In this document: positions 33,153 through 63,601 of the stretch, in pieces
Layout of the letters: every line of letters begins with the position of its first letter
How positions within the stretch are numbered: position 1 is the stretch's first letter
Assembly (NCBI RefSeq): GCF_007833215.1
Contig: NZ_CP042239.1
Span: 2,850,001 to 2,914,000, forward strand
DNA: 64,000 nucleotides
From: Sphingomonas suaedae
GTDB lineage: Bacteria > Pseudomonadota > Alphaproteobacteria > Sphingomonadales > Sphingomonadaceae
Direction of reading: 5' to 3'
Translations under genes and position numbers: made by a program
The notes under the pieces: generated by a model
Databases searched by the model: none
Seen by the model: only the letters and a program-made list of their open reading frames with translations
Told to the model about the DNA's origin: nothing

Positions 33153-34274
33153 CTAGTCGCGCGCCATTCGGCGAAAATCGTCGATCCAGGCGTAGTTGAA
33201 CGCGGTGGTGCCGTCAGGATTGGGCCGCACTGTTCGCCCCGCATAGACGCTGTTGATCAGCCATGGCGTGGATTTCGGCCCGAAATTCGTCGTCATCGAG
33301 CGCCCCTGCTTGAAGCCGTAGGTCGCGACGGCAAGGCGACCGGTATCGCGGAAAATCTTCATCTGGTTCGCCAAATAATGCTTCCTGTTCTCAAACCACG
33401 GGCTCATCTTCAGGAAATCGTCCCATTGCGCTTTCGGGAACGGGGTCTCCAGGGCGGCCTTGATGATCTGCCAGTTCTGCGCGGTGCGCGGCGCCTGATA
33501 TTTGTCGGCAAAGGCGGTCGCGACCGGCTTGTCGAGATTCTGCTGCCACCAGCCGACCAGCGAGAATTCGGTGGCGATGAACTTTTGCTCAGGCCGCATG
33601 CGCGCGAAGATATAGTCGAGGAACGGCCTGGACAGCTCGATGCTCGGCACGTGCGGGTGGATGTTGACCCCGTCGATCTCGGGCGTCGCCTTGACGAACG
33701 CCATCCAGCGTTCGGTCGATGGCGTGCGGTTCTTCTTGAGGTCCATACGATTGAGCGCGCCCATATAGAGGCGCGTCTTGCAGTCGCCGCCGCAATTGGC
33801 ATTGCGATAGGCGACGATCCGCTTTGCCAGCGCCTCGTAGAAGACGTTGAGGTCGAGGTCGCGGTCCTGTTCGCGGGTTTCGAAATAGGGTTCGTTGCCG
33901 ATCACGAGGATGTCGACCTTGCCCATCACCAGCGGCAACACCGCGTCCAGCCGTGCCACTTCGCGGTTGAAGGCTGCGCTGTCCGGCTTGGGAAAGTCGC
34001 TGCGGGTGTACGGCCATTTGAGCGTGAAGATCGTCTTGTAGCCGCGCGCGCCGGCCGCGAGCGTTGTCTTCACCGCGCCATGTTCGGCGGGAGGCGCACG
34101 ATCGACCTGCGGCATCGGCAGGAACAGGCGAATCCATTTCGCTCCCGCTGCGTCGAGTTCGCGATAGTCGACGTCCTCATAATGCTCGTTGAAATTGGCG
34201 CCCAATGCGCCCTGCGCCAGCGCCGGCGTGCTCATAGCAGTGATTGCGGCACCCGCCGCCAGAAGCATCCGCAT
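33153..34274 (-). CDS. Putative clan GH-A glycoside hydrolase, paralogue 2 of 3
   Basis: The protein has 373 residues; the start ATG 34274 follows GGGGAGAG. The signal peptide is MRMLLAAGAAITAMSTPALA-QG, so it is periplasmic. The domain begins GANFNEHYEDVDYREL immediately after the signal. Clan GH-A-type residues are Glu128 in VDILVIGNEPYF and Glu236 in KFIATEFSLVGWW, with GVNIHPHVPSIE between and a conserved Cys pair (NCGGDCKT) that may form a disulfide. It is close to paralogue 3 (same length, same Glu positions) and shares the catalytic domain with paralogue 1. It is divergent from a sulfatase gene, with an operator element between. Family not assigned. Confidence 0.75.
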   Translation of the reverse strand: MRMLLAAGAAITAMSTPALAQGALGANFNEHYEDVDYRELDAAGAKWIRLFLPMPQVDRAPPAEHGAVKTTLAAGARGYKTIFTLKWPYTRSDFPKPDSAAFNREVARLDAVLPLVMGKVDILVIGNEPYFETREQDRDLDLNVFYEALAKRIVAYRNANCGGDCKTRLYMGALNRMDLKKNRTPSTERWMAFVKATPEIDGVNIHPHVPSIELSRPFLDYIFARMRPEQKFIATEFSLVGWWQQNLDKPVATAFADKYQAPRTAQNWQIIKAALETPFPKAQWDDFLKMSPWFENRKHYLANQMKIFRDTGRLAVATYGFKQGRSMTTNFGPKSTPWLINSVYAGRTVRPNPDGTTAFNYAWIDDFRRMARD

Positions 34275-34345
34275 ATCGTTACTCTCCCCAGGCGATGGCC
34301 CGTCTGCACGAGCGCCCCGACTAATGTTTGACACATATCACAATA

Positions 34346-34360
34346 ATACGATAATTAGTG
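34346..34360. promoter_or_regulatory. PUL operator candidate ATACGATAATTAGTG
   Basis: It lies in the 122-base gap between the divergent hydrolase (34274) and sulfatase (34397) genes. It matches the element at 16997-17011 at 13 of 15 positions. Confidence 0.5.
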
Positions 34361-34396
34361 CATGGCCAGCGTTTAACTGCGGCACAGGGAGCGGCT

Positions 34397-35851
34397 ATGA
34401 CGGCGCAACGGGTTTCGCGACGCAAGGCAATCGGGCTGGCGGCCGCGCTGCTTGCGACGGCCCTCGGCTCGGGAACCGCGCTAGCTGGCCCCCAGGAGAC
34501 GACCGCTCGCCCCGCCCAAACCGCGCCGCAGCGCCCCCCGACAAAGCCCAATATCCTCTTCGTGCTGGTCGACGACATGGGATATGGCGACCTGTCGATC
34601 ACGGGTAACCGCCTCGTCGCGACGCCGCATATCGATGCGCTCGCGCGCGACGGGCTGATGATGACCCAGTTCTACGACGCCTCGCCGATCTGCTCCCCAT
34701 CGCGCGCCGGCTTCATGACCGGGCGCTTCCCGGCCCGCGACCGGTTCGTCACCTTTGTCGACGGTCGACGTCGCAATGCCGCGTTCAACCAGGCCGACTG
34801 GCTCGATCCCAAATTGCCGACCCTGCCGCGCACGCTGCAACAGGTGGGGTACGCGACTGGGCAGTTCGGCAAATGGCATTTGGGTGGGGGGCGCGACATA
34901 GGCGATGCGCCACTGCCGACCGCCTATGGGTTCGATGAAAGCTATGTGCAGTGGGAGGGCCTTGGCCCCCGCGTGCTGCCCACCGATCTGACCAACAAGC
35001 TTGGCGAGCAGAGCGCGGCTCTGGGCAAGGGGCCGATCGACTGGCTGCCCCGCGCCCAGCTTACCGCGCGGTTCATTGACAAGACGCTCGATTTCGTTCG
35101 CCGCAGCAAGGACAAGTCCTGGTTTGCGCAGCTTTGGCTGACCGACATGCACTCGCCCTGGGTGCCCAGCGCCGAGCAGCTTGCGGCGACCAAGGGCAAG
35201 GGGCGCAACCCGCGCGAGGACAATTTCCTTGCGGTACTGGTCGCGATGGATGCCGAGATCGGTCGGCTGGTCGAGGGGCTTCGCGCGGCGGGCGAACTGG
35301 ACGACACGTTGATCGTCTTCACATCGGACAACGGCCCGACGATCGGCGCCAATGCTCCCGGTTCGGCCGGTCCGTATCGCGGGCGCAAGGCGAGCCTGTA
35401 CGAAGGCGGGGTGCGCCAGCCACTGATCATACGCTGGCCGGGTCAGGTGCCTGCGGGACGCCGCGATGCCGATAGCGTGGTGCAAGCGGTCGACCTGCTG
35501 CCGACGATGGCCGCGATAACCGGCGCGCGCAACCCAAGCGGAATCGACGGGATCGACGTCTCCGCCGCCTGGCGCGGCAAGCCGATCACGTCGCGACCCG
35601 ACCTTTACAGTCATATCGCGCGCGCGGGGGGTGAGGCGTTCGGACCGCTTTATGCAATCCGCTCCGGCCCGTGGAAACTGCTGATGAATGTCGATGGCAG
35701 CGCGGCCGAGCTCTACAATATCGAGCAGGATCCGGGCGAGCAGCGCGACCGCAAGGCCGATTCACCCTCTGTGTTCAAGGACTTGTCGCGCAGGCTGGCA
35801 AGCTGGATCGCCACCCTTCCGCCACCGGCCACGCCGCGGCCCAGGCGCTGA
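34397..35851 (+). CDS. Sulfatase (Cys-type, S1 family), Tat-exported, near-duplicate of the one at 48160
   Basis: The protein has 484 residues; ATG 34397 follows AGGGAG. The leader VSRRKAIGLAAALLATALGS is a twin-arginine signal. Metal-binding NILFVLVDDMGYGDLSITGN is followed by the formylglycine motif with Cys99 in SPICSPSRAGFMTG, then FGKWHLGGG, WLTDMHSPW and FTSDNGPTIG. It hydrolyses sulfate esters after Cys-to-formylglycine conversion; no maturation enzyme is encoded in the window. The protein is very similar along its whole length to the sulfatase at 48160. The target sulfate position is unknown; context suggests an algal-type sulfated glycan. Confidence 0.92.
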   Translation: MTAQRVSRRKAIGLAAALLATALGSGTALAGPQETTARPAQTAPQRPPTKPNILFVLVDDMGYGDLSITGNRLVATPHIDALARDGLMMTQFYDASPICSPSRAGFMTGRFPARDRFVTFVDGRRRNAAFNQADWLDPKLPTLPRTLQQVGYATGQFGKWHLGGGRDIGDAPLPTAYGFDESYVQWEGLGPRVLPTDLTNKLGEQSAALGKGPIDWLPRAQLTARFIDKTLDFVRRSKDKSWFAQLWLTDMHSPWVPSAEQLAATKGKGRNPREDNFLAVLVAMDAEIGRLVEGLRAAGELDDTLIVFTSDNGPTIGANAPGSAGPYRGRKASLYEGGVRQPLIIRWPGQVPAGRRDADSVVQAVDLLPTMAAITGARNPSGIDGIDVSAAWRGKPITSRPDLYSHIARAGGEAFGPLYAIRSGPWKLLMNVDGSAAELYNIEQDPGEQRDRKADSPSVFKDLSRRLASWIATLPPPATPRPRR

Positions 35852-35954: not shown

Positions 35955-38666
35955 ATGAGAATTTCTATTATTCTTGCGTGCACGACGTCGGCGCTCGCGC
36001 TTGTTGCGATTCCGACCGGCGCGATGGCGCAGGACGAAACCGTCACCGTCGACAGCGCGCCCGAAGACCCTTCCGAACAGGAAGAGATCGTCATCACCGC
36101 GATCCAGCGCAGCCTTGAAACGTCGCAGGCGATCAAACAGGATTCCGACCAGATCGTCGATTCGATCGTTGCGGAGGATATCGGCAAGCTGCCCGACGTG
36201 ACCGCGACGGAATCGCTCGCGCGTATCACCGGCGTGCAGGTTGACTTCGCGAATGGTACGGCGGCCGGCACCCGCGTACGCGGCCTCCCCGATATCACGA
36301 CCACCTATAACGGCCGCGAATTGTTCACCGGTCAGGGACGCGCAGTCGCGCTTCAGGATTTCCCGTCGAGCAGCATCGCGCGGCTCGACGTGTACAAGTC
36401 AGGAAGCGCAAACTTGCTCGAGCCCGGCATTGCCGGCCTGATCGACGTCCGCGCGCGCAAGCCGCTCGACTTCAAGGGCGATCGCATTGCGGGCGGCATC
36501 AGCGGCGTGCACTGGCGCCAGTCGCAGAAGCTGGGCGTCGATGCAAACCTGCTCATCAGCAAGCGCTGGGACACCGGGATCGGCGACATCGGTTTCCTGA
36601 TCGAGGGGTCCTACACCGATATAAAGTTCCTCGATTCCTCACGCAACGTCAGCCAGCAGATCCTGAGCCGCAACGTCGCCGGGCTGGGCACGATCCGTTA
36701 TCCCTCGTTCGTCAACATCAACTATAATTCGGCCGATCGTTACCGCCCCTCGGTCGCAACGGCGCTGCAATGGCGTCCCAGCACCGAGCTGGAATTCTAT
36801 GCCGATTTCCTGTTTCAGGGTTATCGGAACACCGGCTTTGGCAGCAACTTCCAGGTTAATTCCGGGCAACAGGCGAACCTGACCGACATCGTTTTGATTC
36901 CCGGCACGAACCAGGTCAAAAGCATGACGGCGGCAGCCGGCGCATTCCCGACCGGCGTTCAGCGCGCGATCGATGCATGGACGGATACCTATCAGGCAGG
37001 TGTCGGCTTCATTTGGAGGCGTGACGGGCTGCGCATCACCGGGGATGTCGCATTCACCGATTCGACGTTCACCCAGGACGCGCTGAATTTCAATTTTAGC
37101 GGCATCGTTCCGCAAGCGACCCGTACGTTCGACTTTGATACGGACCAGGGTGTCGGCGGCGGCACCACCGTCGTGACCGACGTCAATCTGAGCGACCCTT
37201 CCCGCTATCGCATGACGGGTTTGGGTCAGAATGGTTCGCGCGCTCATGGCCGCGACTGGCAGGGACGCCTGGATCTCGACTATCGTTTCGGCCCCCGCGG
37301 CCTCACCAATGTGCAGGCGGGCGTTCGCTTCAACACCCGTGATTTCGATCAGTCGAACTACAGCGAAAGCGGCGTTGCGCCGGCGGGGCAGTTCTTCCCC
37401 CTGCTGCCGCTGGACTATACCAGCACTTCGCCCGGATTCCGCGGTGACGCGGTGGAGATCACGCGCACGTTCGTGACGCCGACGCCCGAAAGCCTGCGCG
37501 CCAATTTGGCGGCGCTTCGTGCCATCGCGGGCATGTCCGCAGAGCGGGCGCCACTTGAGGAAGTCTATTTCGGTAAAGAAAAGACCTATGCCGGCTATCT
37601 GCAAGGCCGCTACGCCTTTGATCTGGGCAGCATGACCCTCGACGGTCTGGTCGGGCTGCGCGCCGTGCGGACCGAAAACGAGATCAACGGGTTCGATCGG
37701 GTCACAACTGGCGGCGTGACCACGGTGGTCCCGGTATCGAACAGCAACAGCTATACCGATTTCCTGCCCAATATCAGCGCACGGTTGCGCATCACGCCCA
37801 AGCTGCAGCTTCGCCTTGCCTATACGGAGACTCGGACACGTCCCGGTTTTGGCGATCTCAACCCGTCGCTGACGATCGGTGCGCCTTCCACCACGTGTAA
37901 CACCGATCCGAACGATCCGGATTGCGTTCGCGTGTCGAACGGCGGCAACTCCGATCTCGACCCGATCCGGTCGCACAATTATGATGCGTCGCTGGAATGG
38001 TATTTCACGCGCAGTGGATCGCTGACGTTCGGCGTGTTCAACCGTGATGTCACCGGTTTTATCTCGGACTTCACCACGGACGTCGAGGATGCCGAATTCG
38101 GCCGCTTGCGCGTCACCCGTCCGTTCAACGGCGGTGAGGGTCGATTGCGGGGCTTGGAGGCAGCGTTCCGCTCGTTCCTGCGGTTCCCGGGCGTGCCCGA
38201 CTGGGCCCGTAATTTCGGCGTTCTCGCCAACTACACCTATATCGATCATGAATCGGAACTGCCACAGGCATTGGCGGAGACGCTGCCCGGCAAGCAGCGG
38301 CTTGCCGGCGTGTCCAACCACATCGCCAATGCCGGCATTTTTTACGACAGCCGCTTCTTTTCGGCGCGCGCATCGTACAATTACCGGTCGGACTATGTGG
38401 TCGAATATAATCGCGTGAACGATCCCGCGCTTGGCAATGCCGTGCTCGGCCCGACGCTGCCGATCATCGAGGACGGGCGTGGCACGCTGGATATCAATGC
38501 CACGCTCGAGCCGACCCGGAATGTCACGCTGGCGTTCAGCGTCGCCAATGTGCTGGGCGCCGCAGCAACGAACCAACGCCAGTTCAATACCGAAGGGCAG
38601 ATCTATCCCTGGCAGACCCGATTCCTGGAGACGGTCTATCGCGTAGGTGTCCGCTTCCGCTTCTGA
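35955..38666 (+). CDS. TonB-dependent receptor of the sulfated-glycan locus
   Basis: The protein has 903 residues; GGGGAGG lies just upstream of ATG 35955. The signal peptide is MRISIILACTTSALALVAIP-TGAMA. There is no STN domain. A TonB box (EEIVITAIQRSL) precedes the plug (IVAEDIGKLPDVTATESLAR, RVRGLPDITTTYNGRELFTG, VYKSGSANLLEPGIAGLIDV), and the barrel ends in Phe (VYRVGVRFRF). Plugs with SIVAEDIGKLPD are common in alphaproteobacterial carbohydrate receptors. It should import oligosaccharides released by the neighbouring enzymes. It is regulated with the locus by the element upstream, and a terminator follows at 38693. Confidence 0.93.
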   Translation: MRISIILACTTSALALVAIPTGAMAQDETVTVDSAPEDPSEQEEIVITAIQRSLETSQAIKQDSDQIVDSIVAEDIGKLPDVTATESLARITGVQVDFANGTAAGTRVRGLPDITTTYNGRELFTGQGRAVALQDFPSSSIARLDVYKSGSANLLEPGIAGLIDVRARKPLDFKGDRIAGGISGVHWRQSQKLGVDANLLISKRWDTGIGDIGFLIEGSYTDIKFLDSSRNVSQQILSRNVAGLGTIRYPSFVNINYNSADRYRPSVATALQWRPSTELEFYADFLFQGYRNTGFGSNFQVNSGQQANLTDIVLIPGTNQVKSMTAAAGAFPTGVQRAIDAWTDTYQAGVGFIWRRDGLRITGDVAFTDSTFTQDALNFNFSGIVPQATRTFDFDTDQGVGGGTTVVTDVNLSDPSRYRMTGLGQNGSRAHGRDWQGRLDLDYRFGPRGLTNVQAGVRFNTRDFDQSNYSESGVAPAGQFFPLLPLDYTSTSPGFRGDAVEITRTFVTPTPESLRANLAALRAIAGMSAERAPLEEVYFGKEKTYAGYLQGRYAFDLGSMTLDGLVGLRAVRTENEINGFDRVTTGGVTTVVPVSNSNSYTDFLPNISARLRITPKLQLRLAYTETRTRPGFGDLNPSLTIGAPSTTCNTDPNDPDCVRVSNGGNSDLDPIRSHNYDASLEWYFTRSGSLTFGVFNRDVTGFISDFTTDVEDAEFGRLRVTRPFNGGEGRLRGLEAAFRSFLRFPGVPDWARNFGVLANYTYIDHESELPQALAETLPGKQRLAGVSNHIANAGIFYDSRFFSARASYNYRSDYVVEYNRVNDPALGNAVLGPTLPIIEDGRGTLDINATLEPTRNVTLAFSVANVLGAAATNQRQFNTEGQIYPWQTRFLETVYRVGVRFRF

Positions 38667-38831: not shown

Positions 38832-38850
38832 TGCAGTTTGGAGAGCATTG

Positions 38851-40557
38851 ATGGTCGCACGTCGCAACTTTATGAGAACCATCGCGGTCGCTCTGGCGGG
38901 CTCGATGCTGTCGAGCATGGCCGGCGCCGCGCCGATGCCACAGGCGCCGGGCAAGGACCGGCCTAACATCGTCGTCATCCTGGTCGATGACATGGGCTTT
39001 TCCGACTTCAGCAGCTATGGCGGCGAAATTCCCACCCCGAACATCGACGCGCTCGCGGACAATGGGCTGCGGTTCACCCAATTCTACAACAATGCGCGAT
39101 GCAGCCCGACGCGTGCAGCATTGCTGACCGGGCTAAACCCGCATCAAGCCGGGATGGGCTATCTGTCGGGCAAGGTCGAGCCGGAGTCACGCGGCACATT
39201 CGGACGGCTGCACGAACGCAGCGTCACGATCGCGCAGCTGCTGCGCGGCTCGGGCTATATGACCGCGATGACCGGCAAATGGCATCTGGGCAACCGGCCC
39301 GGCACGACCGCGGCAACCCGTGGCTTCGACCGGTCGCTTTCGGCAGTCGCGGGTGGCATCTATTTCCCCGACCAGACATTCGGAACACGCGGCGGCAGGC
39401 GCTTTTTACTGCGCGATGGCGAGCGCATCGAGCTCAACGATCCTTCCCTGGGCAAGGACTGGTACGGCACCGATTTGTGGACCGATGAAGGCATCCGCTA
39501 CATCGACGAAGCGCGGGAGGAGAAGAAGCCGTTCTTCCTCTACCTCGCCCATGTCGCCCCGCACTTCCCGCTGATGGCGCCCCAGGCGGACATCGAGCGC
39601 TTCGTCGGCAACTATCGCGAAGGCTGGACCAAGCTGCGCGCCGCGCGCTTCAAGCGCCAACAGGAAATGGGGCTGATCGGCCCGAACACCGGCCTTGGCG
39701 AAGTACCCGAGGCCGCAGACGATTGGGACGCGCTTTCCGAGGCGGACAAGACCCGGTTCGACCGGATGATGGCGGTCTATGCCGCGACGATCAGCCGCGT
39801 CGACCAGTCGGTCGGTCGCCTGACGGCGCACCTCAAGGCAACGGGTCAGTTCGACAACACGCTGATCCTGATCATGTCGGACAATGGCGGGAATGCCGAA
39901 TCCGGCCCGCGCGGCCGCACCGGTGCCGCGCCATGGGGTGGCCCGTCGAGCGATACCTGGGCGGGCATGAACTGGGCGGTGCTTCAGAACACCCCCTTCC
40001 GGTCGTTCAAGCATTTTACCCATGAGGGCGGCATCGCCACGCCGCTCATCGCACATTGGCCGGCGGGGATCGCGGCGAACCTTCGCGGGCGGCTGGAGCG
40101 GACCCCGGCGCATGTGATCGACATCATGCCGACGCTGCTGGAACTCACCGGCACCCGCTATCCCGAGACGTTCGCGGGCCATGCGATCCTGCCCTATGAA
40201 GGCACGACGCTCGCCCCCCTGCTGCGCGGCAACCCGGCAAAGCGCGACAAGCCGATCTTCTGGGCGCATGAAGGCAATAACGCGGTCCGCGACGGCCAGT
40301 GGAAGGCAGTCAAACGGCTGGGCTATTCATGGCAGCTGTTCGACATGAGCGCGGATCGCACCGAGCGGAACGATCTGGCCAAGGAGCAGCCCGCACGGCT
40401 GGCGGCGATGTCGAGCACTTGGGACCAGTGGGCCGAGCGCACCTATGTCGATCCATGGACCGACGAGCCGCGGCGCACCGACTGGGGCGCGCCGATCGGT
40501 GGAGGCGCTCAGGCCGAGGACCGTCCGCGCAGGCCGCGCCGACGCCGCCGGAACTGA
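38851..40557 (+). CDS. Sulfatase (arylsulfatase AtsA-like, Cys-type)
   Basis: The protein has 568 residues; ATG 38851 follows GGAGAG. The leader VARRNFMRTIAVALAGSMLS suggests export. Motifs: NIVVILVDDMGFSDFSSYGG, the formylglycine site Cys84 in NNARCSPTRAALLTGLNPHQ (CSPTR variant), MTGKWHLG, LYLAHVAPHFPL, IMSDNGGNAESG and HWPAGI. The NARCSPTRAALLTG segment and a long insertion (SGPRGRTGAAPWGG) are typical of AtsA-like arylsulfatases. The C-terminus is an unusual Arg/Pro-rich tail (DRPRRPRRRRRN). It converges with the GH43-type gene, with a strong terminator between. Confidence 0.92.
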   Translation: MVARRNFMRTIAVALAGSMLSSMAGAAPMPQAPGKDRPNIVVILVDDMGFSDFSSYGGEIPTPNIDALADNGLRFTQFYNNARCSPTRAALLTGLNPHQAGMGYLSGKVEPESRGTFGRLHERSVTIAQLLRGSGYMTAMTGKWHLGNRPGTTAATRGFDRSLSAVAGGIYFPDQTFGTRGGRRFLLRDGERIELNDPSLGKDWYGTDLWTDEGIRYIDEAREEKKPFFLYLAHVAPHFPLMAPQADIERFVGNYREGWTKLRAARFKRQQEMGLIGPNTGLGEVPEAADDWDALSEADKTRFDRMMAVYAATISRVDQSVGRLTAHLKATGQFDNTLILIMSDNGGNAESGPRGRTGAAPWGGPSSDTWAGMNWAVLQNTPFRSFKHFTHEGGIATPLIAHWPAGIAANLRGRLERTPAHVIDIMPTLLELTGTRYPETFAGHAILPYEGTTLAPLLRGNPAKRDKPIFWAHEGNNAVRDGQWKAVKRLGYSWQLFDMSADRTERNDLAKEQPARLAAMSSTWDQWAERTYVDPWTDEPRRTDWGAPIGGGAQAEDRPRRPRRRRRN

Positions 40558-43666: not shown

Positions 43667-43690
43667 GAGTCTCTCCCCTTTCATCTTTGT

Positions 43691-46941: not shown

Positions 46942-46986
46942 CACGATTTGCGGCCTCTCCCTTGTTTCTCGTTAGCAGACAGGGAT

Positions 46987-55706: not shown

Positions 55707-55753
55707 CCGCGCGCGACGCGGGCCAAGTCCATCGAGAAAAGGGGACAGGAAAT

Positions 55754-57712
55754 ATGCGCTTCGCTCTCATCGGCATGACGGCGCTCGCCGCATCGATGCT
55801 GTCCCCTGCCGCGGCGTGGAGCCGGACCGCGCCTGCGCCTGCGCCGGCTCCGCAGGGCGGCGACAAAGTCTATGCCGGCGACATCATCACCCGCTGGGGC
55901 AAGGCAGTGACGGCGGAGAATGCCTGGCGCAGCTATCCCCGCCCCCAGATGAAGCGCAAGGACTGGCTGAACCTCAACGGCAAATGGGACTATGCGATCA
56001 CGCCGCTGGACGCGCCGCAGCCCAGCCGGATGGACGGCAAGATTCTGGTCCCGTTCGCGGTGGAATCGCGCCTGTCGGGCGTGCAGCGTCGCCTGACCGC
56101 GAATGACCGGCTCTGGTATCGCCGCGACTTCACAGTGCCGGCGGCCTGGGCGGGGCAGAATGTGCTGATCCATTTTGGCGCGGTCGATTTCGAGGCGGCG
56201 GTGTTCGTCAACGGCGCATTCGCCGGATCGCATCGCGGCGGATCGGATGCGTTCAGCTTCGATATCACCCCCTTCCTCAGGGCGGGGGCGAACGCGCTGG
56301 AAGTGCGTGTTACCGATCCGACCACCGACGGCAGCCAGCCGCGCGGCAAGCAGACCCTCGATCCGCGCGGCATCTGGTACACTGCGGTCTCGGGCATCTG
56401 GCAGACGGTGTGGCTTGAGCCGGTGCCCAGGCTGCACATCAAGGAAGTGCGCGCGACGCCGCACATCGACACCGGCATGCTGGCGGTGGACGTGCTGCTC
56501 AGCAGCGGCAGCATGGCGACCGACGCGGTGCGGGTTACGGCGCGGGCTGGTGGCAAGGTCGTGGGATCGACGCTGATCCGCGGCAACCGGCGCGGCTTCA
56601 TCGCCATCCCGAATGCGCGGCTGTGGTCGCCGGACGATCCGTTTCTCTACGATCTTACCGCCGAACTGGTGACGGTCGGAAATCCGCTGGGCGGCGGCAG
56701 GCCTAATCCGCCGATGTATCAGCAGGGCCAGACGCAGCGCGAGGCCGATGCATTTGCGACGGCGAAGATCGTCGGTGCACCACGCGATACGGTCGATGCC
56801 TATTTCGCGATGCGCAAGATTTCGGTCGGGCGCGGCCCGGTCGGCAATCGCCTCGCGCTGCATCTCAATAACAAGCCGCTCTTCCATAACGGTACGCTCG
56901 ATCAGGGCTGGTGGCCCGAAAGCCTGCTCACCCCGCCGTCGGAAGAGGCCATGATCTATGACATGGAATTCCTCCAAAAGGCGGGGTTCAACATGCTGCG
57001 CAAGCATATCAAGGTCGAACCGGCGCAATATTACGCCGCCGCCGACCGGATGGGCATGCTGATCTGGCAGGACATGCCCTCGGGCGGATTCCGCGACCAG
57101 GGCGTCGGCCGCGCGAGCGACCGCCAGGCGACGTTGTCGTCGGACGACATGGCGCAGTTTCAGGACGAGCTTTCGCGGATGATCGGCGATCTGCGCGCCT
57201 TCCCCTCGATCGTGATGTGGGTGGTGAACAATGAAGGCTGGGGGCAGTATGACGCCGCCACGCTCGGCCGCTTCGTCAAGGGCACCGACCCCAGCCGCCT
57301 GGTCAACGCAGTCAGCGGCTGGCAGGACGTCGGCGACACGCCGTCCGACGTGTACGACATCCACAGCTATGACGAGACGCCGAAATCGCCCGAATGGCGA
57401 CCGGGCCGCGCATCGGTGATCGGCGAATTCGGCGGGGTGAGCTATTCGGTGCCGGGGCATCTGTGGTTCCCGGATCGCGTCGATCGCCTCTATCAGGCCG
57501 CCAAGACCCCCGAGGATTATCTTGCCCGCTACAAGCAAAAGATGGGCGGAGTAGTGCGCCAGAAGCAAATGGAGGGCCTCGCCGCATCGGTCTATACCGA
57601 GACCACCGATGTCGAGGGCGAACTGAACGGTCTGCTGACCTATGATCGCGCAGTTATCAAGATTCCGGTGGGGACGCTAGCCGAGATCGCCGCGCCGCTG
57701 ACCGAGGACTAG
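55754..57712 (+). CDS. GH2-family glycosidase (beta-galactosidase/beta-glucuronidase fold)
   Basis: The protein has 652 residues; AGGA precedes ATG 55754. Signal peptide to PAAAWS. Sugar-binding jelly-roll (LNGKWDYAITPLDAPQPSRM, WYRRDFTVPAAWAGQNVLIH, FEAAVFVNGAFAGSHRGGSD), an Ig-like domain, then the TIM barrel with acid/base Glu494 in MWVVNNEGWGQYD and nucleophile Glu558 in ASVIGEFGGVSYS. The Asn before the acid/base Glu is kept, as in clan GH-A. Family members cleave beta-galactosides, beta-glucuronides, beta-mannosides or alpha-L-arabinopyranosides; specificity is open. The length is short for lacZ but normal for exported PUL enzymes. Confidence 0.9.
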   Translation: MRFALIGMTALAASMLSPAAAWSRTAPAPAPAPQGGDKVYAGDIITRWGKAVTAENAWRSYPRPQMKRKDWLNLNGKWDYAITPLDAPQPSRMDGKILVPFAVESRLSGVQRRLTANDRLWYRRDFTVPAAWAGQNVLIHFGAVDFEAAVFVNGAFAGSHRGGSDAFSFDITPFLRAGANALEVRVTDPTTDGSQPRGKQTLDPRGIWYTAVSGIWQTVWLEPVPRLHIKEVRATPHIDTGMLAVDVLLSSGSMATDAVRVTARAGGKVVGSTLIRGNRRGFIAIPNARLWSPDDPFLYDLTAELVTVGNPLGGGRPNPPMYQQGQTQREADAFATAKIVGAPRDTVDAYFAMRKISVGRGPVGNRLALHLNNKPLFHNGTLDQGWWPESLLTPPSEEAMIYDMEFLQKAGFNMLRKHIKVEPAQYYAAADRMGMLIWQDMPSGGFRDQGVGRASDRQATLSSDDMAQFQDELSRMIGDLRAFPSIVMWVVNNEGWGQYDAATLGRFVKGTDPSRLVNAVSGWQDVGDTPSDVYDIHSYDETPKSPEWRPGRASVIGEFGGVSYSVPGHLWFPDRVDRLYQAAKTPEDYLARYKQKMGGVVRQKQMEGLAASVYTETTDVEGELNGLLTYDRAVIKIPVGTLAEIAAPLTED

Positions 57713-57760: not shown

Positions 57761-58684
57761 TCAGAATTCGAACGGTTCGGTCACGCGGCGCTCAGCGACG
57801 AGGAATGCGTCCGCGACCAGTTTGATCGGGCGAAGGTCGACGTCCGATTCGCCGCTGCGCACCAGCTCGGCAAAGCGGCGATACAGCCGCGGATACTCAT
57901 CGTTCGATCCGCTGACGAGCGGTTCACCCGGCAATTCCAGACGGCTGCCGCCATGCGTCAGGCGCAGCATGCCTGCATCGGTATCGACCTCGATATCCCA
58001 GGTCTGCCCGCCGGTCTGGAGGAAGTCGAAGCACGCATCGACCGCCGCCTCGCCGCTGCGGAAGGTGATCGCAGCAGCGAGCGGACAGGCGCGGTTGGCG
58101 GGCACGTCCATCGTCGCGTGCAGCACGACCAGCGGCTGCGGCAGGATGCGGGTCGCGATCGACAACGCGTTGATGCCCGGATCGAACACGCCAAAGCCCC
58201 CGGCGGCCAGGATCCAGTCCTGTCCCGGATGCCATTGCCGGATATTCTCCATCCAACGGATGCGCACCGCGTCGATGCGCCGGTCGGCCAGCCAGGTGCG
58301 CGCGGCATCGACCTCCGCCGCCTCGCGCGAATGCCAGGTGGCGAACAACGTCACGCCCGACGCCCGCGCCGCAGCGGCCAGCGCCTCCGCCTCCGACACC
58401 GTCGCTGCGGGTGGCTTCTCCAGCATCACATGCTTGCCAGCGCGAATCGCCGTCATCGCTTGCTCGAACCGCCCCTCAGGCGGGGTGCAAAGCGATACCG
58501 CCTCGACCTGCGGACAGGCATGGATCATTTCGGCAATCGAAACATAGCCTGTCACGCCCTCGACCCGCCCATGGCGGCTCGCCGTCGCCACCAGTTCAAA
58601 ATCATCCGAGGCGGCGAGCGCCGGCACGTGCTGGTCGCGTGCGATTTTGCCGATCCCGGCGAGCCCTAGCTTGATCCTATCCAC
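57761..58684 (-). CDS. Gfo/Idh/MocA-family sugar 1-dehydrogenase (L-arabinose/D-galactose type)
   Basis: The protein has 307 residues. NAD(P)-binding N-terminus: [20 protein letters not shown]. The lysine motif is [20 protein letters not shown], followed by [52 protein letters not shown] and [20 protein letters not shown]. This pattern matches, over its whole length as I recall it, the L-arabinose 1-dehydrogenase of Azospirillum brasilense, which also accepts D-galactose. It would oxidise the sugar to its lactone as the first step of the non-phosphorylative pathway. It is divergent from the dehydratase gene, with an operator element between. It is cytoplasmic. Confidence 0.87.
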
Positions 58685-58698: not shown

Positions 58699-58712
58699 AT
58701 ACGATATATATG
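58699..58712. promoter_or_regulatory. PUL operator candidate ATACGATATATATG
   Basis: Located in the 116-base gap between the divergent dehydrogenase and dehydratase genes. It shares ATACGATA with the element at 34346. Confidence 0.45.
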
Positions 58713-58800
58713 CTTCCTATCCGCGAAAATGCACTATATCAACGCGCATATGAAGCGAGCGACGGCGGTGCCGGCGCGTTGGCGGGGAACCGGAGAGGGT

Positions 58801-60612
58801 ATGGGCTTGGCGGACGATAGCACGAAACCGGCGAATCGCAGGCTGCGATCGCGTGCCTGGTTCGACAACCGCGAAAACCCCGACATGACCGCGCTCTATG
58901 TCGAGCGATACCTGAATTACGGGATCAGCCTCGAAGAGCTCCAGTCCGGCCGTCCGATCATCGGCATCGCCCAGACCGGCAGCGACCTGGTGCCGTGCAA
59001 CCGCCACCACATCGAACTGGTCAAGCGCACCCGGGAAGGCATCCGCGACGCGGGCGGCATCGCCATCGAATTTCCCGCGCACCCGATTCAAGAGACGGGC
59101 AAGCGCCCAACCGCCGGGCTCGACCGCAACCTGTCCTACCTCAGCCTCGTCGAATCCATCTACGGCTATCCGATGGACGGGGTCGTCCTCACCATCGGCT
59201 GCGACAAGACCACCCCGGCCTGCCTGATGGCGGCCGCCACGGTGAACCTTCCGGCGATCGCGCTGTCGGTCGGGCCGATGCTCAACGGTTGGTTCAAGGG
59301 CGAGCGCACCGGCTCCGGCACCATCGTGTGGAAGGCGCGCGAGATGCTCGCCGCGGGCGAGATCGACTATAAGGGGTTTATCGAGCTGGTCGCCTCGTCG
59401 GCGCCCTCGACCGGCTGGTGCAACACGATGGGCACCGCGACGACGATGAACTCGCTCGCCGAGGCGCTCGGAATGTCGCTGCCCGGATCGGCGGCGATCC
59501 CTGCGCCCTATCGCGACCGGCAGGAGAATGCGTATCTCACGGGCCTTCAGATCGTCGAGATGGTGCAGGCCGACCGCAAGCCGAGCGACATCATGACGCG
59601 GGAGGCGTTCCTCAATGCGATCCGCGTCAACAGCGCGATCGGCGGATCGACCAACGCGCCGATCCACTTGAACGCCATCGCCCGTCATATCGGCGTCGAA
59701 CTGAGCCTGGCGGATTGGGAAGCGCATGGGGCCGACGTGCCGCTCGTCGTCAATCTCCAGCCAGCCGGAACCTATCTGGGCGAGGATTTCTATCGCGCCG
59801 GCGGCGTCCCGGCGGTGATGGGACAGTTGCTGCGCGCCGGGATGATCGACGGCAGTGTCGTGGGCGCCAACGGTCGCACGGTCGCCGAGAATATCGGCGA
59901 TGTGCAGGCGAGCGACACCGATGTCATCCGCCCGCTGGCCGATCCTCTGAAACCCGCTGCTGGCCTGAGCGTACTGTCGGGCAATCTGTTCGACAGCGCA
60001 GTGATGAAGCTCAGCGTCATCTCGCCAGAGTTCCGCGCGCGCTATTTGTCCAACCCCGATGATCCCGAAGCGTTCGAGGCGACCGCAGTCGTGTTCGACG
60101 GGCCGGAGGATTATCACGCGCGGATCGACGATCCGGCGCTGGGCGCGGACGATTCCTCGATCCTGATCATGCGGGGCGCGGGGCCGATCGGTTATCCGGG
60201 CGGCGCGGAAGTGGTGAACATGCGGCCCCCGGTGGCGCTGATCCAGGCGGGGGTGCATGCCCTCCCCTGCCTGGGCGACGGACGCCAATCGGGGACCAGC
60301 GGCAGCCCGTCGATCCTGAACGCCGCGCCCGAAGCGGCGGTGGGCGGCGGGCTCGCACTGATCCGCACCGGCGACCGGGTGCGCATTGATCTTGGCAAGC
60401 GCACCGCAGACATGCTGGTCGATGCCGACGAGCTGGAGCGCCGTCGCGCGGCGCTGGCCGCCGATCTAGACTATGTCCCCGCCTCGCAGACGCCGTGGCA
60501 GGAGATCCACCGCAACATCACTGGCCAGTTCGAGGGCGGGGCAGTGATTGAGCTGGCGGTCAAGTACCAGCGGATCGCGCAGACGCGCGGGCTTCCCCGC
60601 GACAGCCACTGA
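58801..60612 (+). CDS. IlvD/Edd-family sugar-acid dehydratase (D-xylonate/L-arabonate type)
   Basis: The protein has 603 residues; ATG 58801 follows GGAGAGGG. The sequence tracks the Caulobacter XylD family: [80 protein letters not shown], the cluster ligand region [20 protein letters not shown] and [20 protein letters not shown]. The three conserved cysteines of the Fe-S cluster site are present. It dehydrates a C5 (or C6) aldonate to the 2-keto-3-deoxy acid. With the arabinose-type dehydrogenase next door, L-arabonate is the likeliest substrate. Its stop overlaps the lactonase start (TGATG). Confidence 0.92.
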
Positions 60613-61466
60613 TGGCTGACGTCGCAATCATCGACCGCGACCGTGCCGACCGGCTGGGCGAAGGCCCGCTCTGGTCGGCGCGCGAGGATGCGCTCTACTG
60701 GGTCGATATCCTCGACCACCGCATCAACCGCCTGTCGCTGACCGACAACAGCGTCGAGAGTTTCCAGCAGCTCGATTATGCCGCCTGGATCATCGAGCGA
60801 GAGGCGGGTGGGTTCGTCGCGGGGGTCGGGCTCGACATCGTCCGGCTCGACCTTCCCTCCAACGCGCATACGGTCATCGGATCGGTTGATCGCGGCATCG
60901 CGGGCAACCGGCTCAACGATGCCAAGGCGGACGCACAGGGCCGCATCTGGGCGGGAACGATGCCCGCCAGTTGCGACCGGCCCAGCGGCGCATTCCACCG
61001 CATCGATCCCGACGGGCGGATCGCCGCGGTCGATGCCCCCTACACCATCGCCAACGGCCCGGCGATCGATCCGACGGGACGCTGGCTCCTCCACACCGAC
61101 ACCGCGCTCGGCACCATCTTCCGCTTCGACATCAACGACGACGGCAGCCTGTCGGAGCGCCGCCCGTTCATCGTCTTCGAGCCCGAATGGGGCAATCCCG
61201 ACGGCATGACCTTCGACGCCGAGGGCGGGCTGTGGGTCGCCTGCTGGGGAGCGGGGTGCGTGACACGCTTCACGCCGGAGGGGCGCCGCGAACGCTCGAT
61301 CGCCCTGCCCGCCAGCCAGATTACCAGCTGCACCTTTGCCGGACCGGATCTCGACCGCATGTTCGTCACCTCCGCCGCCGATGGCGTGGACGAGGAACAT
61401 GGCGGTGCGCTGTTCGAAGTCGATCCCGGTTGTCGCGGCCGGGCGCCCATGATGTATCGCGGATAA
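60612..61466 (+). CDS. SMP-30/gluconolactonase-family sugar lactonase
   Basis: The protein has 284 residues and begins in the stop codon of the dehydratase gene. Six-bladed propeller with metal ligands: Glu in DRLGEGPLWSAREDALYWVD, Asn in GNRLNDAKADAQGRIWAGTM, a second Asn in YTIANGPAIDPTGRWLLHTD and Asp in WGNPDGMTFDAEGGLWVACW. Family members hydrolyse aldonolactones (XylC, AraB). It is cytoplasmic. It completes the dehydrogenase, lactonase and dehydratase steps; the later enzymes to 2-oxoglutarate or to pyruvate and glycolaldehyde are not in the window. Confidence 0.92.
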   Translation: MADVAIIDRDRADRLGEGPLWSAREDALYWVDILDHRINRLSLTDNSVESFQQLDYAAWIIEREAGGFVAGVGLDIVRLDLPSNAHTVIGSVDRGIAGNRLNDAKADAQGRIWAGTMPASCDRPSGAFHRIDPDGRIAAVDAPYTIANGPAIDPTGRWLLHTDTALGTIFRFDINDDGSLSERRPFIVFEPEWGNPDGMTFDAEGGLWVACWGAGCVTRFTPEGRRERSIALPASQITSCTFAGPDLDRMFVTSAADGVDEEHGGALFEVDPGCRGRAPMMYRG

Positions 61467-61485
61467 AGCAGGAGAGAGATTCAAG

Positions 61486-62643
61486 ATGGCAACGAAAAGC
61501 GCATATCTGGTGGCCGCTGCGGCGGCCTGTATCCTGGGCGGCGCGGCAGAGGCGGCGACCGCCAAGCGCGGCAGCTTCGGCAAGCTGTCCGATGGACGCG
61601 CGGTCGCATCGGTCACGCTCGCCAACGGTCGTGGCGTATCGGTGACGATGATCGCCTATGGCGCGACGATCCAGTCGGTGGTGATGCCCGACCGCAATGG
61701 CCGCAAGGCCGATGTCGCGCTCGGCTATGACAAGATCGACCTGTACGAGACCAAGCCGCAATATTTCGGCGGGATCGTCGGGCGCTTCGGCAACCGGCTG
61801 GCCGAGGGCAAGTTCACGCTCGACGGCAAGACCTATCAGACCCCCGTCAACAATGGGAAGAACGCGCTGCACGGCGGCACCAAGGGGTTCGACAAGGTTT
61901 TGTGGGACGTGGTGTCGGTAAAGAGCGGTCCGACCGCGTCGGTCACCTTCCGCTATGTGAGCCGCGACGGCGAGATGGGCTATCCCGGCACACTGACGGT
62001 CGATGCGATCCACTTGCTCGACGAGAAGAACCATCTCACCATCGAATATCGCGCCACCACCGACAAGGCGACCGTCGTCAACCTGACCAACCACAATTAC
62101 TGGAACCTGTCGGGCGAAGGGTCGGCGAATGGCGCGATGGGCCATGTCGTGATGATCCCGGCGCAGACCTATCTACCGACCGACGACGGTGCGATCCCGA
62201 CCGGCGAATTCAAGTCGGTCGCGGGCACCGTGTTCGATTTCCGCACGCCGCGCGCGGTGGGCGACCGGGTTCGCGATGCCAGGGACCAGCAGATCGTTTG
62301 GGGTCGCGGCTATGATCACAACTGGGTGATCGGTCGCAAGGTAATCCCCGGCCAGCAGCTGATGGCGAAGGTCCATGACCCGGCTTCGGGCCGCGGGTTC
62401 GAGCTGTGGTCGAACCAGCCGGGACTGCAATTCTACTCGGGCAATTTCTTCGACGCGACCAGCAGCGGGAAAGCCGGGAAAATCTATCGCATGGGCGATG
62501 CGATCGTGATGGAGCCGCAGAATTTCCCCGACGCGCCGAACCAGAAGGGATTCCCCAGCGCGCGGCTCGATCCGGGCCAGACCTATCGCAACGTGATGAC
62601 CTATCGTCTCACCACCGGCGCAGCGCCGCGCAGGAAGCGCTGA
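61486..62643 (+). CDS. galM: Exported aldose 1-epimerase (mutarotase)
   Basis: The protein has 385 residues with a signal peptide (SAYLVAAAAACILGGAAEA), so it is periplasmic. GalM motifs: YGATIQSVVMPDRNGRKADV, GGIVGRFGNRLAEGKFTLDG, LHGGTKGFDKVLWDV, the catalytic His in TNHNYWNLSGEGS, WGRGYDHNWVIG and the catalytic Glu in AIVMEPQNFPDAPNQKGFPS. It interconverts alpha and beta anomers so that released sugars suit transport or the dehydrogenase. It lies 19 bases after the lactonase gene, with GGAGAG upstream, and 1 base before the GH43 gene, so it is in one operon. Confidence 0.93.
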   Translation: MATKSAYLVAAAAACILGGAAEAATAKRGSFGKLSDGRAVASVTLANGRGVSVTMIAYGATIQSVVMPDRNGRKADVALGYDKIDLYETKPQYFGGIVGRFGNRLAEGKFTLDGKTYQTPVNNGKNALHGGTKGFDKVLWDVVSVKSGPTASVTFRYVSRDGEMGYPGTLTVDAIHLLDEKNHLTIEYRATTDKATVVNLTNHNYWNLSGEGSANGAMGHVVMIPAQTYLPTDDGAIPTGEFKSVAGTVFDFRTPRAVGDRVRDARDQQIVWGRGYDHNWVIGRKVIPGQQLMAKVHDPASGRGFELWSNQPGLQFYSGNFFDATSSGKAGKIYRMGDAIVMEPQNFPDAPNQKGFPSARLDPGQTYRNVMTYRLTTGAAPRRKR

Positions 62644-62644
62644 G

Positions 62645-63601
62645 ATGCTGGCGGCGGAGCGATCGTTGATCCGCCTCGCCGCCCTGTGCGCGGCCGTTCC
62701 CATAGTACTGGGAGCGGCCGTGGTCGCGCATGACGCACCGACCGCGTTCGCCGGTGCCGATCCGGATATCGAGGTCGCGGACGGCCGTTACTGGATCTAT
62801 CCGACCAACAGCGGCGAAGGCGGGGCGGCGCGGCTATACGCATGGACGTCACGCGATCTGCGCACCTGGCAGCGTGACCGCGAATTGCTGCGGCTGGACG
62901 ATATCGACTGGATCGCTGACGACGGTGCGCCGCGCCATTTTCTCTGGGCTCCCGACATGGTCGCCGCCAATGGCCGCTATTATCTCTATTATTCGGTCGG
63001 CCCGCAGAACCCGACGCCCAGCCGCATCGGGGTCGCCACGTGCGATACTCCGGCTGGCCCCTGTTCCGACAGCGGCAAGCCGCTGATCACCGGAGGCAAC
63101 GGGTTCGAGGCGATCGATCCGGCGGTCTTCGTCGATCCTCGCGATGGCAGCCGGTATCTCTATGCCGGCGGCAGCGCGGGTGCGACGTTGCGGATGTGGC
63201 GGCTGAACCCGGACTTGACGTCGCTCGACCGCGAGATGCCGGTCGAGACGCCACCGCAGTTCACCGAGGGCGCGTTCGTGCATGAACGGAACGGCACCTA
63301 CTATCTATCCTACTCCCATGGCTCGTGGCGGCATGCGACCTATTCGGTCCATTATGCCACGTCGCGTTCGCCGTCGGGTCCATGGGCGTATCGCGGCGCG
63401 ATCCTGACCAGCGATGGGCGCTTCAAGGGGCCCGGGCACCACGCCTGTCTGCGCGACCCCGGCACTGGCCGCTGGCACATCGCTTATCATCGCTGGGAAG
63501 GCGAGCAGGGCGACGGCCCCTATAAGGGCCAGCGCCGCATCGTCGTGCAACCGATAACCTATGGGCCAGACGGCGCGATCGAACCTATTGCGATGCAGTG
63601 A
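62645..63601 (+). CDS. GH43 glycosidase, exported
   Basis: The protein has 318 residues. The hydrophobic leader SLIRLAALCAAVPIVLGAAV is a signal peptide or anchor. Single propeller with the GH43 triad: Asp in FAGADPDIEVADGRYWIYPT, Asp in GNGFEAIDPAVFVDPRDGSR, Glu in PPQFTEGAFVHERNGTYYLS. It also has LWAPDMVAANGRYYLYYSVG. Such enzymes are alpha-L-arabinofuranosidases, beta-xylosidases or exo-beta-1,3-galactanases; the DPDI and EGAF forms fit a broad GH43 subgroup. Only one base separates it from galM, and it ends the operon 6 bases before the convergent GntR gene. Confidence 0.88.
   Translation: MLAAERSLIRLAALCAAVPIVLGAAVVAHDAPTAFAGADPDIEVADGRYWIYPTNSGEGGAARLYAWTSRDLRTWQRDRELLRLDDIDWIADDGAPRHFLWAPDMVAANGRYYLYYSVGPQNPTPSRIGVATCDTPAGPCSDSGKPLITGGNGFEAIDPAVFVDPRDGSRYLYAGGSAGATLRMWRLNPDLTSLDREMPVETPPQFTEGAFVHERNGTYYLSYSHGSWRHATYSVHYATSRSPSGPWAYRGAILTSDGRFKGPGHHACLRDPGTGRWHIAYHRWEGEQGDGPYKGQRRIVVQPITYGPDGAIEPIAMQ

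Follow-up and report, generated by a model that had tools for sequence, protein, structure and literature searches.

The window analysed here, a stretch of 64,000 nucleotides from Sphingomonas suaedae (host genome of one contig, 4.15 Mb), probably carries a complete utilisation locus for a sulfated D-galactan, most likely of the arabinogalactan type, which reaches to about 68633 in window numbering. The original prediction of a sulfated-glycan utilisation locus at 33153-63601 is supported by six sulfatases, the sulfatase-maturing FGE, receptors, a symporter, a regulator and a common cis-element, but that interval ends in mid-locus, and five further genes follow it, the last ending at 68633. 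The interval itself holds six S1 sulfatases and, as had been read from it, three GH43 proteins (one double), a GH2, a GH5-like protein and two TonB receptors, together with two GH-A enzymes. The genes are as follows, the last four lying past the window end.

17031..18320, plus strand: third GH-A paralogue, proline-rich linker (profile A2, 550 bits; not in that alignment)
33153..34334, minus strand: GHA1, GH-A-type glycosidase, 73% identical to GHA2; signal peptide-like N-terminus by eye
34358..35851, plus strand: sulfatase, S1_16-like (PF00884 178 bits; GTG start uncertain, later start possible)
35955..38666, plus strand: TonB-dependent receptor 1 (PF00593, PF07715)
38848..40557, plus strand: sulfatase, arylsulfatase 1hdh group (PF00884 203 bits)
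40638..42539 (longest ORF to 42944), minus strand: tandem GH43 (PF04616 146 bits)
42545..43684, minus strand: GHA2, GH-A-type glycosidase, predicted E134 and E242
43691..45304, minus strand: sulfatase, 6hhm/iduronate-2-sulfatase type (PF00884 153 bits; lipobox-like N-terminus by eye)
45379..46944, minus strand: sulfatase, S1_15-like (galactose/GalNAc-6-sulfate type), the conserved one (PF00884 193 bits)
47031..48074, plus strand: GH43, arabinofuranosidase type, 3akf group (PF04616 186 bits; PDB 3akf E 4e-62)
about 48133..49611, plus strand: sulfatase, second S1_16-like copy (PF00884 169 bits; start uncertain)
49670..51079, minus strand: sulfatase, S1_8/SGSH-like (PF00884 150 bits)
51109..53895, minus strand: TonB-dependent receptor 2, TonB-Xanth-Caul subfamily (PF00593; TIGR01782 506 bits, cut-off 310)
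54348..55481, plus strand: GH5/GH10-like cellulase-family protein (PF00331 23 bits, barely above cut-off)
55673..57712, plus strand: GH2 glycosidase, beta-galactosidase or beta-glucuronidase type (PF02837/PF02836)
57761..58684, minus strand: Gfo/Idh/MocA sugar 1-dehydrogenase, putatively for D-galactose (PF01408 66 bits)
58729..60612, plus strand: IlvD/EDD dehydratase, putative D-galactonate dehydratase (PF00920; NF009560 1006 bits against 684)
60612..61466, plus strand: SMP-30 lactonase, putative galactonolactonase (PF08450 242 bits)
61486..62643, plus strand: aldose 1-epimerase (GalM, mutarotase; PF01263 294 bits; NF008277 297 against 240; signal peptide-like N-terminus by eye)
62645..63601, plus strand: GH43 nearest 3qz4, deposited as endo-1,4-beta-xylanase D (PF04616 174 bits; PDB 3qz4 E 1e-35)
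63608..64429, minus strand: GntR/FCD regulator, truncated at 64000 where the window stops (L001)
64442-66130: SSS (sodium) symporter
66121-66999: DgoK, 2-keto-3-deoxygalactonokinase (PF05035 266 bits)
66996-67625: DgoA, KDPGal aldolase (NF006600 287 against 207, curated cut-off passed)
67671-68633: FGE (PF03781 275 bits)

The Oxidised Sugar

An arabinose-type oxidation pathway had been proposed for the locus, and its dehydrogenase, lactonase and dehydratase genes indeed belong to the Gfo/Idh/MocA, SMP-30 and IlvD/EDD families, but the arabinose assignment is not supported, because DgoK and KDPGal aldolase follow in the locus and the AraD1-family and XylB (xylose) clusters lie elsewhere. These three families are common to L-arabinose and D-galactose oxidation, and it is the genes past 63601, DgoK and the aldolase with the regulator, symporter and FGE, that point to the sugar. 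The De Ley-Doudoroff gene set is complete, KDGal kinase and KDPGal aldolase being joined by a dehydrogenase, a lactonase and a dehydratase that are placed in broad families only, and the pathway thus composed is predicted to oxidise D-galactose, not L-arabinose. Two other DgoK genes occur in the genome, so that galactonate could also be used outside the locus, a point against the galactose reading. In its favour, PF10509, a galactokinase domain whose model is short (49 positions), finds no match in the genome and matches 10 of 14 controls.

A sulfated arabinan or other arabinose-rich polymer, oxidised via the L-arabinose pathway, is highly improbable. The three oxidation families would serve it too and an arabinofuranosidase-type GH43 is present, but DgoK and KDPGal aldolase complete the galactose route in the same gene run, the sulfatases are mostly of galactose types, and the AraD1-family gene (C1:30 kb, 502 against 340 bits) comes with a dehydratase, a mutarotase and a sugar transporter of its own in a cluster at C1:26-31 kb, which we take to be the arabinose-type cluster of the genome. 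No KDA dehydratase, AraD1 or other, was recognised among the scanned locus genes. The L-arabinonate dehydratase model NF009559 gives 516 bits in the locus against 882, and since neither the matches of the genome, among them the AraD1-linked one, nor those of 14 controls pass it, this test does not separate the two sugars. Where a sulfated arabinan or arabinogalactan had been proposed, then, the arabinan backbone is unlikely, given DgoK, the aldolase and the clusters elsewhere, and sulfated arabinogalactan is possible and is our favoured class, because the GH43 at 47031 is nearest to an arabinofuranosidase structure and one enzyme of the S1_8 type has sulfated arabinogalactan protein as a known substrate (PMC8406133).

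Sulfatases and Their Maturation

All six sulfatases exceed the Pfam cut-off for PF00884, and all six PF00884 matches of the whole genome (E 0.001) lie inside the locus, as does the only strong FGE match of the genome (275 bits against 88 for the second best; no NCBIfam cut-off was reached for FGE), which together argue for a dedicated sulfatase system. The maturation motif C-x-P-[ST]-R is found in every one, in five by the first pattern and in the 38848 copy as C-S-P-T-R. The earlier count of six different Cys-type sulfatases holds for number and type, but the copies at 34358 and 48133 share 73% identity.

By its closest sequences, the sulfatase at 45379 is assigned to subfamily S1_15 and predicted to act on Gal-6-sulfate: it matches PDB 7oze, 6s20, 9bas (named S1_15A), 9bau (S1_15B) and others at E 4e-165 to 2e-141, the top eight sequences, two of them named S1_15, all standing at E 2.2e-141 or better and the next at E 4e-55. 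The 34358 enzyme is nearest, at E 5e-60, to 9fo1, a chain named k-carrageenan sulfatase S1_16, with the runner-up at E 3e-54, and the 49670 enzyme to 4mhx (sulphoglucosamine sulphohydrolase, E 3e-39), followed by 9bb9 (S1_8A) and 9bbd (S1_8B) at E 2e-37 to 6e-35. The 38848 enzyme matches the 1hdh group and 7all (E 6e-88 or better), presumably S1_4, and the 43691 enzyme matches 6hhm (E 1e-87), presumably S1_7. The lead of the nearest structure, in a comparison with PDB, is clear for the S1_4 and S1_7 groups and narrow for S1_16 and S1_8. The six sulfatases therefore resemble S1_15, S1_16 (two), S1_4, S1_8 and S1_7, mostly galactose-sulfate types: S1_15 takes off Gal-6-sulfate and S1_8 Gal-2-sulfate, according to PMC12549532, and S1_4 and S1_16 act on 3S-Gal and 4S-Gal/GalNAc, respectively (PMC10154612). 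The S1_7 enzymes named among the comparisons have uronic acid or carrageenan 4-sulfates as their substrates, an observation that counts against a sulfated galactan.

These same sulfatases could suggest a carrageenan or a mucin/glycosaminoglycan locus, the first of them being nearest to a kappa-carrageenan S1_16 enzyme and S1_15 plus S1_8 being also the lambda-carrageenan set (PMC12549532). We consider this improbable, given that, among the scanned locus genes, Pfam, whose coverage is incomplete, recognised neither a hexosaminidase or lyase family nor the carrageenan partners GH110, GH150 and GH16.

Glycoside Hydrolases and the GH-A Enzymes

We take the 3akf group of the GH43 at 47031 to be GH43_26, and the GH43 at 62645 to be an arabinofuranosidase as well. 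GH43_26 has so far yielded alpha-L-arabinofuranosidase solely (PMC11036162). In the tandem protein, the GH43 domain is C-terminal and the N-terminal half seems degenerate by eye; the protein has only two weak PDB matches and 107 homologues among 8000 scored candidates. The GH5/GH10-like protein is common in sphingomonads, 8000/8000 scored candidates matching. The best match of the 62645 protein was deposited as a xylanase, which counts against arabinogalactan. A GH43_24 beta-1,3-galactanase is the signature of known arabinogalactan systems, and no clear one was recognised, the 62645 protein matching solved 1,3-galactanases at E 3e-7 to 6e-5 only. For the GH2, no NCBIfam galactosidase or glucuronidase model reached its cut-off, and its absence from all 29 loci and from the stretches of all 12 genomes counts against a galactan.

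Besides the GH5-like protein, three unassigned GH-A enzymes had been announced; two lie inside the interval, GHA1 and GHA2, but the third copy lies outside it, at 17031-18320. GHA1 and GHA2 are computed to fold as a (beta/alpha)8 barrel in which strands 4 and 7 are each followed by Glu, as in clan GH-A, and E134 and E242 of GHA2 are the predicted acid/base and nucleophile. None of the three paralogues matched a Pfam or NCBIfam family, no PDB sequence matches GHA2 at E 1, and against existing families (GH39/PslG, GH35, GH53, GH1, GH5) the best Foldseek TM is about 0.5 at 12% identity. With no Pfam, NCBIfam or PDB sequence match, the enzyme is a candidate for a new glycosidase family. Only tentatively do we extend this to the proposal that GHA1 and GHA2 found a new GH-A family of endo-galactanases, acting with the galactose-6-sulfatase and the tandem GH43 on 6-sulfated galactans and spread among sphingomonads, some of them non-marine. 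That the backbone-cutting enzyme has no family assignment was counted against a sulfated galactan.

Conservation in Other Genomes

Among 201 genomes of the genus, the host's included, GH-A occurs in 13, the S1_15-like sulfatase in 13 and the tandem GH43 in 10, and the first two coincide in 12 (Fisher p 2.6e-17, kinship not corrected for); the three form a conserved module. Within about 20 kb of GH-A, IlvD is found in 8 of 11 other GH-A genomes inspected and DgoK plus DgoA in 5, while in 3 (G183, G112, G155) the galactose genes are absent at that distance, which speaks against the galactose reading. The design had been thought new in a sphingomonad: the literature matches listed include no such sphingomonad locus, but several sphingomonad genomes carry it again.

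One of these belongs to Sphingomonas turrisvirgatae MCT13 (L002; S1_15-like 83%, S1_7-like 85%, tandem GH43 92%), described in PMC7472734 as agarolytic and as coming from a wetland ditch, i.e., non-marine. This close version of the locus, the GH-A plus S1_15-like pair in Steroidobacter agaridevorans (L015), agar-related by name, and sulfatase types that suit sulfated galactose would all fit a red-algal agaran-type galactan (agaropectin, porphyran-like), with D-galactose bearing 6-, 4- and 2-sulfate alternating with L-galactose, agarase-like GH-A enzymes and GH43s working on other side groups. We find this unlikely, though less so than a carrageenan, since the scanned locus genes gave no agarase-type match in Pfam, which covers such families in part, the genome's two GH16 matches lie outside the locus, and the arabinofuranosidase-like GH43 would be left without a role.

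Proposed Route and Known Systems

Gene content, family membership, conservation, the common element and the GH-A fold come from computation, and from these we infer, for the sulfated D-galactan, a route in every substrate, reaction, order and compartment. The two TonB receptors would import sulfated galacto-oligosaccharides into the periplasm, and FGE would mature the sulfatases in the cytoplasm. The S1_15-like enzyme would remove galactose 6-sulfate, a step common to most related loci, the two S1_16-like enzymes 4-sulfate, the S1_4-like 3-sulfate and the S1_8-like 2-sulfate; the paralogous GH-A enzymes and tandem GH43 would cut the desulfated chain, the remaining GH43s would take off arabinofuranosyl side groups, and GH2 may free terminal galactose. 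Mutarotase and sodium symporter would bring galactose to the cytoplasm, where the Gfo/Idh dehydrogenase, SMP-30 lactonase, IlvD-type dehydratase, DgoK and DgoA would convert it to pyruvate and glyceraldehyde-3-phosphate. The gene set would be turned on at the element WTAYGATAW, either by the GntR protein or by some other factor.

All five gene types of the De Ley-Doudoroff pathway are here embedded in a sulfatase locus. The kappa/iota-carrageenan regulon of Zobellia galactanivorans reportedly also joins sulfatases and sugar catabolism genes, but for anhydrogalactose polymers and with other enzyme families. The scanned locus genes include TonB receptors and no SusD match, thus lacking the canonical SusC/SusD pair of Bacteroidota. 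In Pseudoalteromonas distincta U2A (PMC12549532), the lambda-carrageenan locus likewise has S1_15, S1_8 and GH2 and frees D-galactose from a highly sulfated galactan, but uses GH150 and GH110, neither recognised here, whereas the Sphingomonas locus adds GH-A, tandem GH43, arabinofuranosidase-like GH43, S1_16/S1_4/S1_7 types and the oxidative galactose pathway. Bacteroides plebeius PUL13 also uses an S1_8 sulfatase, on sulfated arabinogalactan (Codium, wine AGP), but is SusC-based, with two sulfatases (S1_8, S1_14), with GH43_24 and GH145 enzymes placed in a partner locus, and with no sugar oxidation genes in the available description (PMC8406133).

The locus offers a testable route for sulfated galactan breakdown by Alphaproteobacteria, with S1_15-like sulfatase, GH-A enzyme and tandem GH43 as its usable marker, and it highlights an unclassified glycosidase together with a likely operator. 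Sulfation of land-plant arabinogalactans has been proposed only recently, and the locus bears on whether sulfated arabinogalactans are present and eaten in land and freshwater habitats; were the new GH-A family real, 6-sulfated (arabino)galactans would be ordinary food off-sea, from freshwater algae or land plants.

A Shared Cis-Element

The nine-base WTAYGATAW has five sites at four places in 82 kb (0.85 expected), all intergenic and each in front of locus genes or the third GH-A copy:

16997..17005, plus strand: ATATGATAA, ahead of the third GH-A copy
34346..34354, plus strand: ATACGATAA, between GHA1 and the first S1_16-like sulfatase
46987..47004, no strand: inverted pair ATATGATATTTATCATAT, between the S1_15-like sulfatase and GH43
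58699..58707, plus strand: ATACGATAT, between dehydrogenase and dehydratase

That the sulfatases merely scavenge sulfur, with the rest incidental to taking sulfate and no carbon use, is the least probable reading: sulfatase-domain matches do occur in 135/201 genus genomes (128 above cut-off), many presumably serving other purposes, but here the genes for uptake, for hydrolysis and for a full sugar pathway sit in one locus and, in part, have this element in common, and the gene sets travel jointly in other genomes. Across 29 related stretches, 37 of 44 sites fall in upstream regions, which make up 4.5% of the sequence, a number reached by none of 300 letter permutations, and WTAYGATAW is likely an operator.

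Extent and gene content of the locus

The genome is a single contig of 4.15 Mb, of which the window covers bases 2850001-2914000, and the coding strands from 33153 to the window end were set by codon scoring, trained on the locus genes, together with Pfam. This stretch encodes two unassigned GH-A-type glycosidases, six sulfatases, two TonB receptors, and three GH43 proteins, along with a GH5/GH10-like protein (structure model pLDDT 79), a GH2, a Gfo/Idh/MocA dehydrogenase, an IlvD/EDD dehydratase, an SMP-30 lactonase, and an aldose 1-epimerase. Because its genes carry on after the window end, the locus is about 35.5 kb long (33153-68633); the next 5 kb encode a GntR/FCD regulator, a sodium:solute symporter, a 2-keto-3-deoxygalactonokinase (DgoK), a KDPG/KDPGal aldolase (DgoA), and an FGE-type sulfatase-maturation protein, after which Pfam places an RND efflux pump on the opposite strand. 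Two open reading frames were discarded as genes after empty Pfam and NCBIfam scans, namely 46941-47870 on the minus strand and 57758-58669 on the plus strand, with codon scoring and Pfam favoring 47031-48074 (+) and 57761-58684 (-) in their respective places. Our genome searches scored only the best candidates from a loose first pass, and the absences reported from them are thus not absolute; GH16 had two matches in the genome, both outside the locus.

Galactose as the probable sugar

The original prediction had assigned the dehydrogenase, lactonase, and dehydratase to an L-arabinose-type oxidation pathway. The three genes are indeed present, while the arabinose-type assignment did not hold, since these families are common to both the arabinose and the galactose pathways, and the downstream DgoK and KDPGal aldolase, together with an AraD1 cluster located elsewhere, speak against it. 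The aldolase scores 287 bits against NF006600 (2-dehydro-3-deoxy-6-phosphogalactonate aldolase), above its curated cut-off of 207, and the kinase scores 266 bits against PF05035. The AraD1-family gene (502 vs. 340 bits), which we take to serve arabinose use, lies at G000:C1:22000-32000 (stretch L032 of the same genome) with an IlvD-type dehydratase, a mutarotase, and a sugar MFS transporter, and a second IlvD-type dehydratase outside the locus is found near a D-xylose 1-dehydrogenase (XylB, 439 vs. 400 bits) at G000:C1:2458000-2470000 (stretch L033). Because the AraD1 and XylB clusters each hold their own IlvD/EDD paralogue, there are three paralogous dehydratases in three contexts, and the locus copy is the one in the galactose context. 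The model for L-arabinonate dehydratase could not tell the two sugars apart, and the galactokinase domain had no match in the genome, with its control positive in 10/14. Two more DgoK genes elsewhere in the genome count against the locus as the unique route. The sugar is likely galactose, and the polymer is likely a sulfated galactan.

Sulfatases and their maturation

According to the nearest solved structures in a PDB sequence search, the sulfatases starting at 34358, 38848, 43691, and 45379 are S1_16-like, S1_4-like, S1_7-like, and S1_15-like, respectively, and that at 49670 is SGSH/S1_8-like, the S1_4 and S1_7 labels of the chains nearest to 38848 and 43691 being our assumption. The sixth sulfatase (48133) is 73% identical to that at 34358, and its S1_16-like label rests on this identity. 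At the sequence level, the S1_15 assignment of 45379 is firm, as the E value jumps from 2e-141 to 4e-55, and the S1_16 and S1_8 assignments have a narrow lead over the next structures. In published work, S1_15 enzymes take the 6-sulfate off galactose or GalNAc and S1_8 enzymes the 2-sulfate off galactose (PMC12549532), S1_4 removes 3-sulfate and S1_16 removes 4-sulfate (PMC10154612), and an S1_8 enzyme is active on sulfated arabinogalactan protein (PMC8406133). The search of the Sphingomonas suaedae genome found no sulfatases outside the locus, and the one strong FGE match of this genome is also located in the locus. Sulfatases are common in the genus, with at least one match in 135 of 201 genomes and matches over the cut-off in 128 of 201.

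GH43 proteins and the type of polymer

In the PDB sequence search, the best match of the GH43 protein at 47031 is 3akf, named as an alpha-L-arabinofuranosidase and presumably a GH43_26 member. The best match of the GH43 protein at 62645 is 3qz4, a xylanase by its deposited name, which we take to be BT3675; this GH43 protein also matches solved 1,3-galactanases weakly. The tandem GH43 (40638-42539) gave weak PDB matches only. PMC8939339 describes BT3675 as an arabinofuranosidase with arabinogalactan protein as its substrate. An arabinogalactan-type polymer is tentatively the best of several readings, at somewhat less than even chances. The main rival is an agaran-type galactan, because Sphingomonas turrisvirgatae is agarolytic (PMC7472734). 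Among the literature matches listed, which were open-licence papers, there was no sphingomonad sulfated-galactan locus.

Conservation in other genomes

Our survey of public genomes covered 29 places encoding a GH-A relative, some of them cut by contig ends, and a neighbor was counted at 45% identity or more over 120 residues within 10 kb. By this count, the S1_15-like sulfatase accompanies the GH-A relative in 19/29 cases, TonB receptor 1 in 18/29, the tandem GH43 in 17/29, the Gfo/Idh dehydrogenase in 10/29, and the IlvD dehydratase in 9/29. The ten loci without the S1_15-like sulfatase belong to five actinobacteria, Pantoea, an Acidobacteriaceae MAG, and three extra sphingomonad copies; the scanned neighbors of the actinobacterial and Pantoea homologues were uninformative. 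In the Acidobacteriaceae MAG (L026), the GH-A relative (about 47%) lies near two sulfatases, and the pairing may reach beyond Alphaproteobacteria.

Within the genus (201 genomes, including our own), GH-A occurs in 13, among them one weak match (84 bits) and one gene with an in-frame stop, and the S1_15-like sulfatase also occurs in 13, counting matches from 57% identity upward and leaving aside one of 43% in G001. Both are found together in 12/201 genomes (Fisher p 2.6e-17, not corrected for relatedness), and the tandem GH43 is found in 10, all of them among these 12. The 40 kb surrounding GH-A were examined in all of the 13 genomes but our own and the weak one (11 genomes), and G086, which has the sulfatase only, was added. 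The order in G078, G104, G109, and G126 is GH-A, S1_15, receptor, tandem GH43, dehydrogenase, dehydratase, lactonase, mutarotase, GH5-like, GH43, GntR, symporter, DgoK, DgoA, and GH43, with weaker sulfatase matches (28-35%) nearby in G078, G109, and G126. No dehydrogenase, dehydratase, DgoK, or DgoA was found in the 40-kb stretch around GH-A in G183, G112, and G155. The locus of the window is a larger form that has additional sulfatases and also a GH2, the latter being absent from all other loci and stretches compared. At the order level, GH-A was found in 8 of 396 evenly drawn genomes, once at 20 bits.

The cis-element WTAYGATAW

Within 82 kb, this nine-base element has five sites, vs. 0.85 expected (mean of 20 random sequences); they are all intergenic and fall at four places:

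Before the third GH-A gene (17031)
Between GHA1 (33153-34334) and the sulfatase at 34358
Between the dehydrogenase and the dehydratase
Between the S1_15-like sulfatase and the GH43 at 47031, as an inverted pair

The promoter before 17031 was outside the set from which the element was first inspected. In 29 related stretches, drawn from 8 of the 29 GH-A relative loci (L002-L030) and from L048-L069, 37 of the 44 sites are located no more than 300 bases upstream of a locus gene, and the remaining 7 lie elsewhere. The element was derived from promoters of the locus and of relatives with shared ancestry, and the binomial p for upstream placement therefore overstates the evidence. None of 300 letter permutations was as good, the best ones being close to or overlapping the same element, in a control that addresses composition only. 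Because WTAYGATAW is missing from L001 (the stretch past the window end), L031, L032, L033, L046, and L047, it does not precede the symporter or the fourth GH-A copy. A palindromic operator, TATGAT-n-ATCATA, was tried and rejected, with one exact site and 6 relaxed sites vs. 4 to 11 in random sequence; the half-site form WTAYGATAW held up where the palindrome failed.

GH-A enzymes and other genes in the window

GHA2 (42545-43684) had no match among PDB sequences, and the Pfam scan of 20 GH-A family members gave chance-level matches only. GH39, GH35, and GH53 are unnamed in the titles of the 50 VIA-align matches listed for GHA2, which excludes none of them. The third paralogue (17031-18320) has a proline-rich linker and stands alone upstream of the locus, with WTAYGATAW 25 bases before its start. 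The fourth copy shares its region (G000:C1:2816-2830 kb; L031 6839-8131 and L046 12761-14596) with a second tandem GH43 (58%) and a further GH43. Two Gfo/Idh-type genes, STN-type TonB receptors, and a gene of the 3-keto-disaccharide hydrolase family are also found there, and the region lacks WTAYGATAW. The gene with the in-frame stop (G026:C1:3061363-3062478) may be decaying.

A separate block at 24664-32192, with an STN-type TonB receptor, FecR, a PhoD-like phosphatase, and a calcium-dependent phosphoinositide phospholipase C family protein, is perhaps for phosphate acquisition, and a LuxR-type regulator with an autoinducer-binding domain is encoded at 19571-20317.
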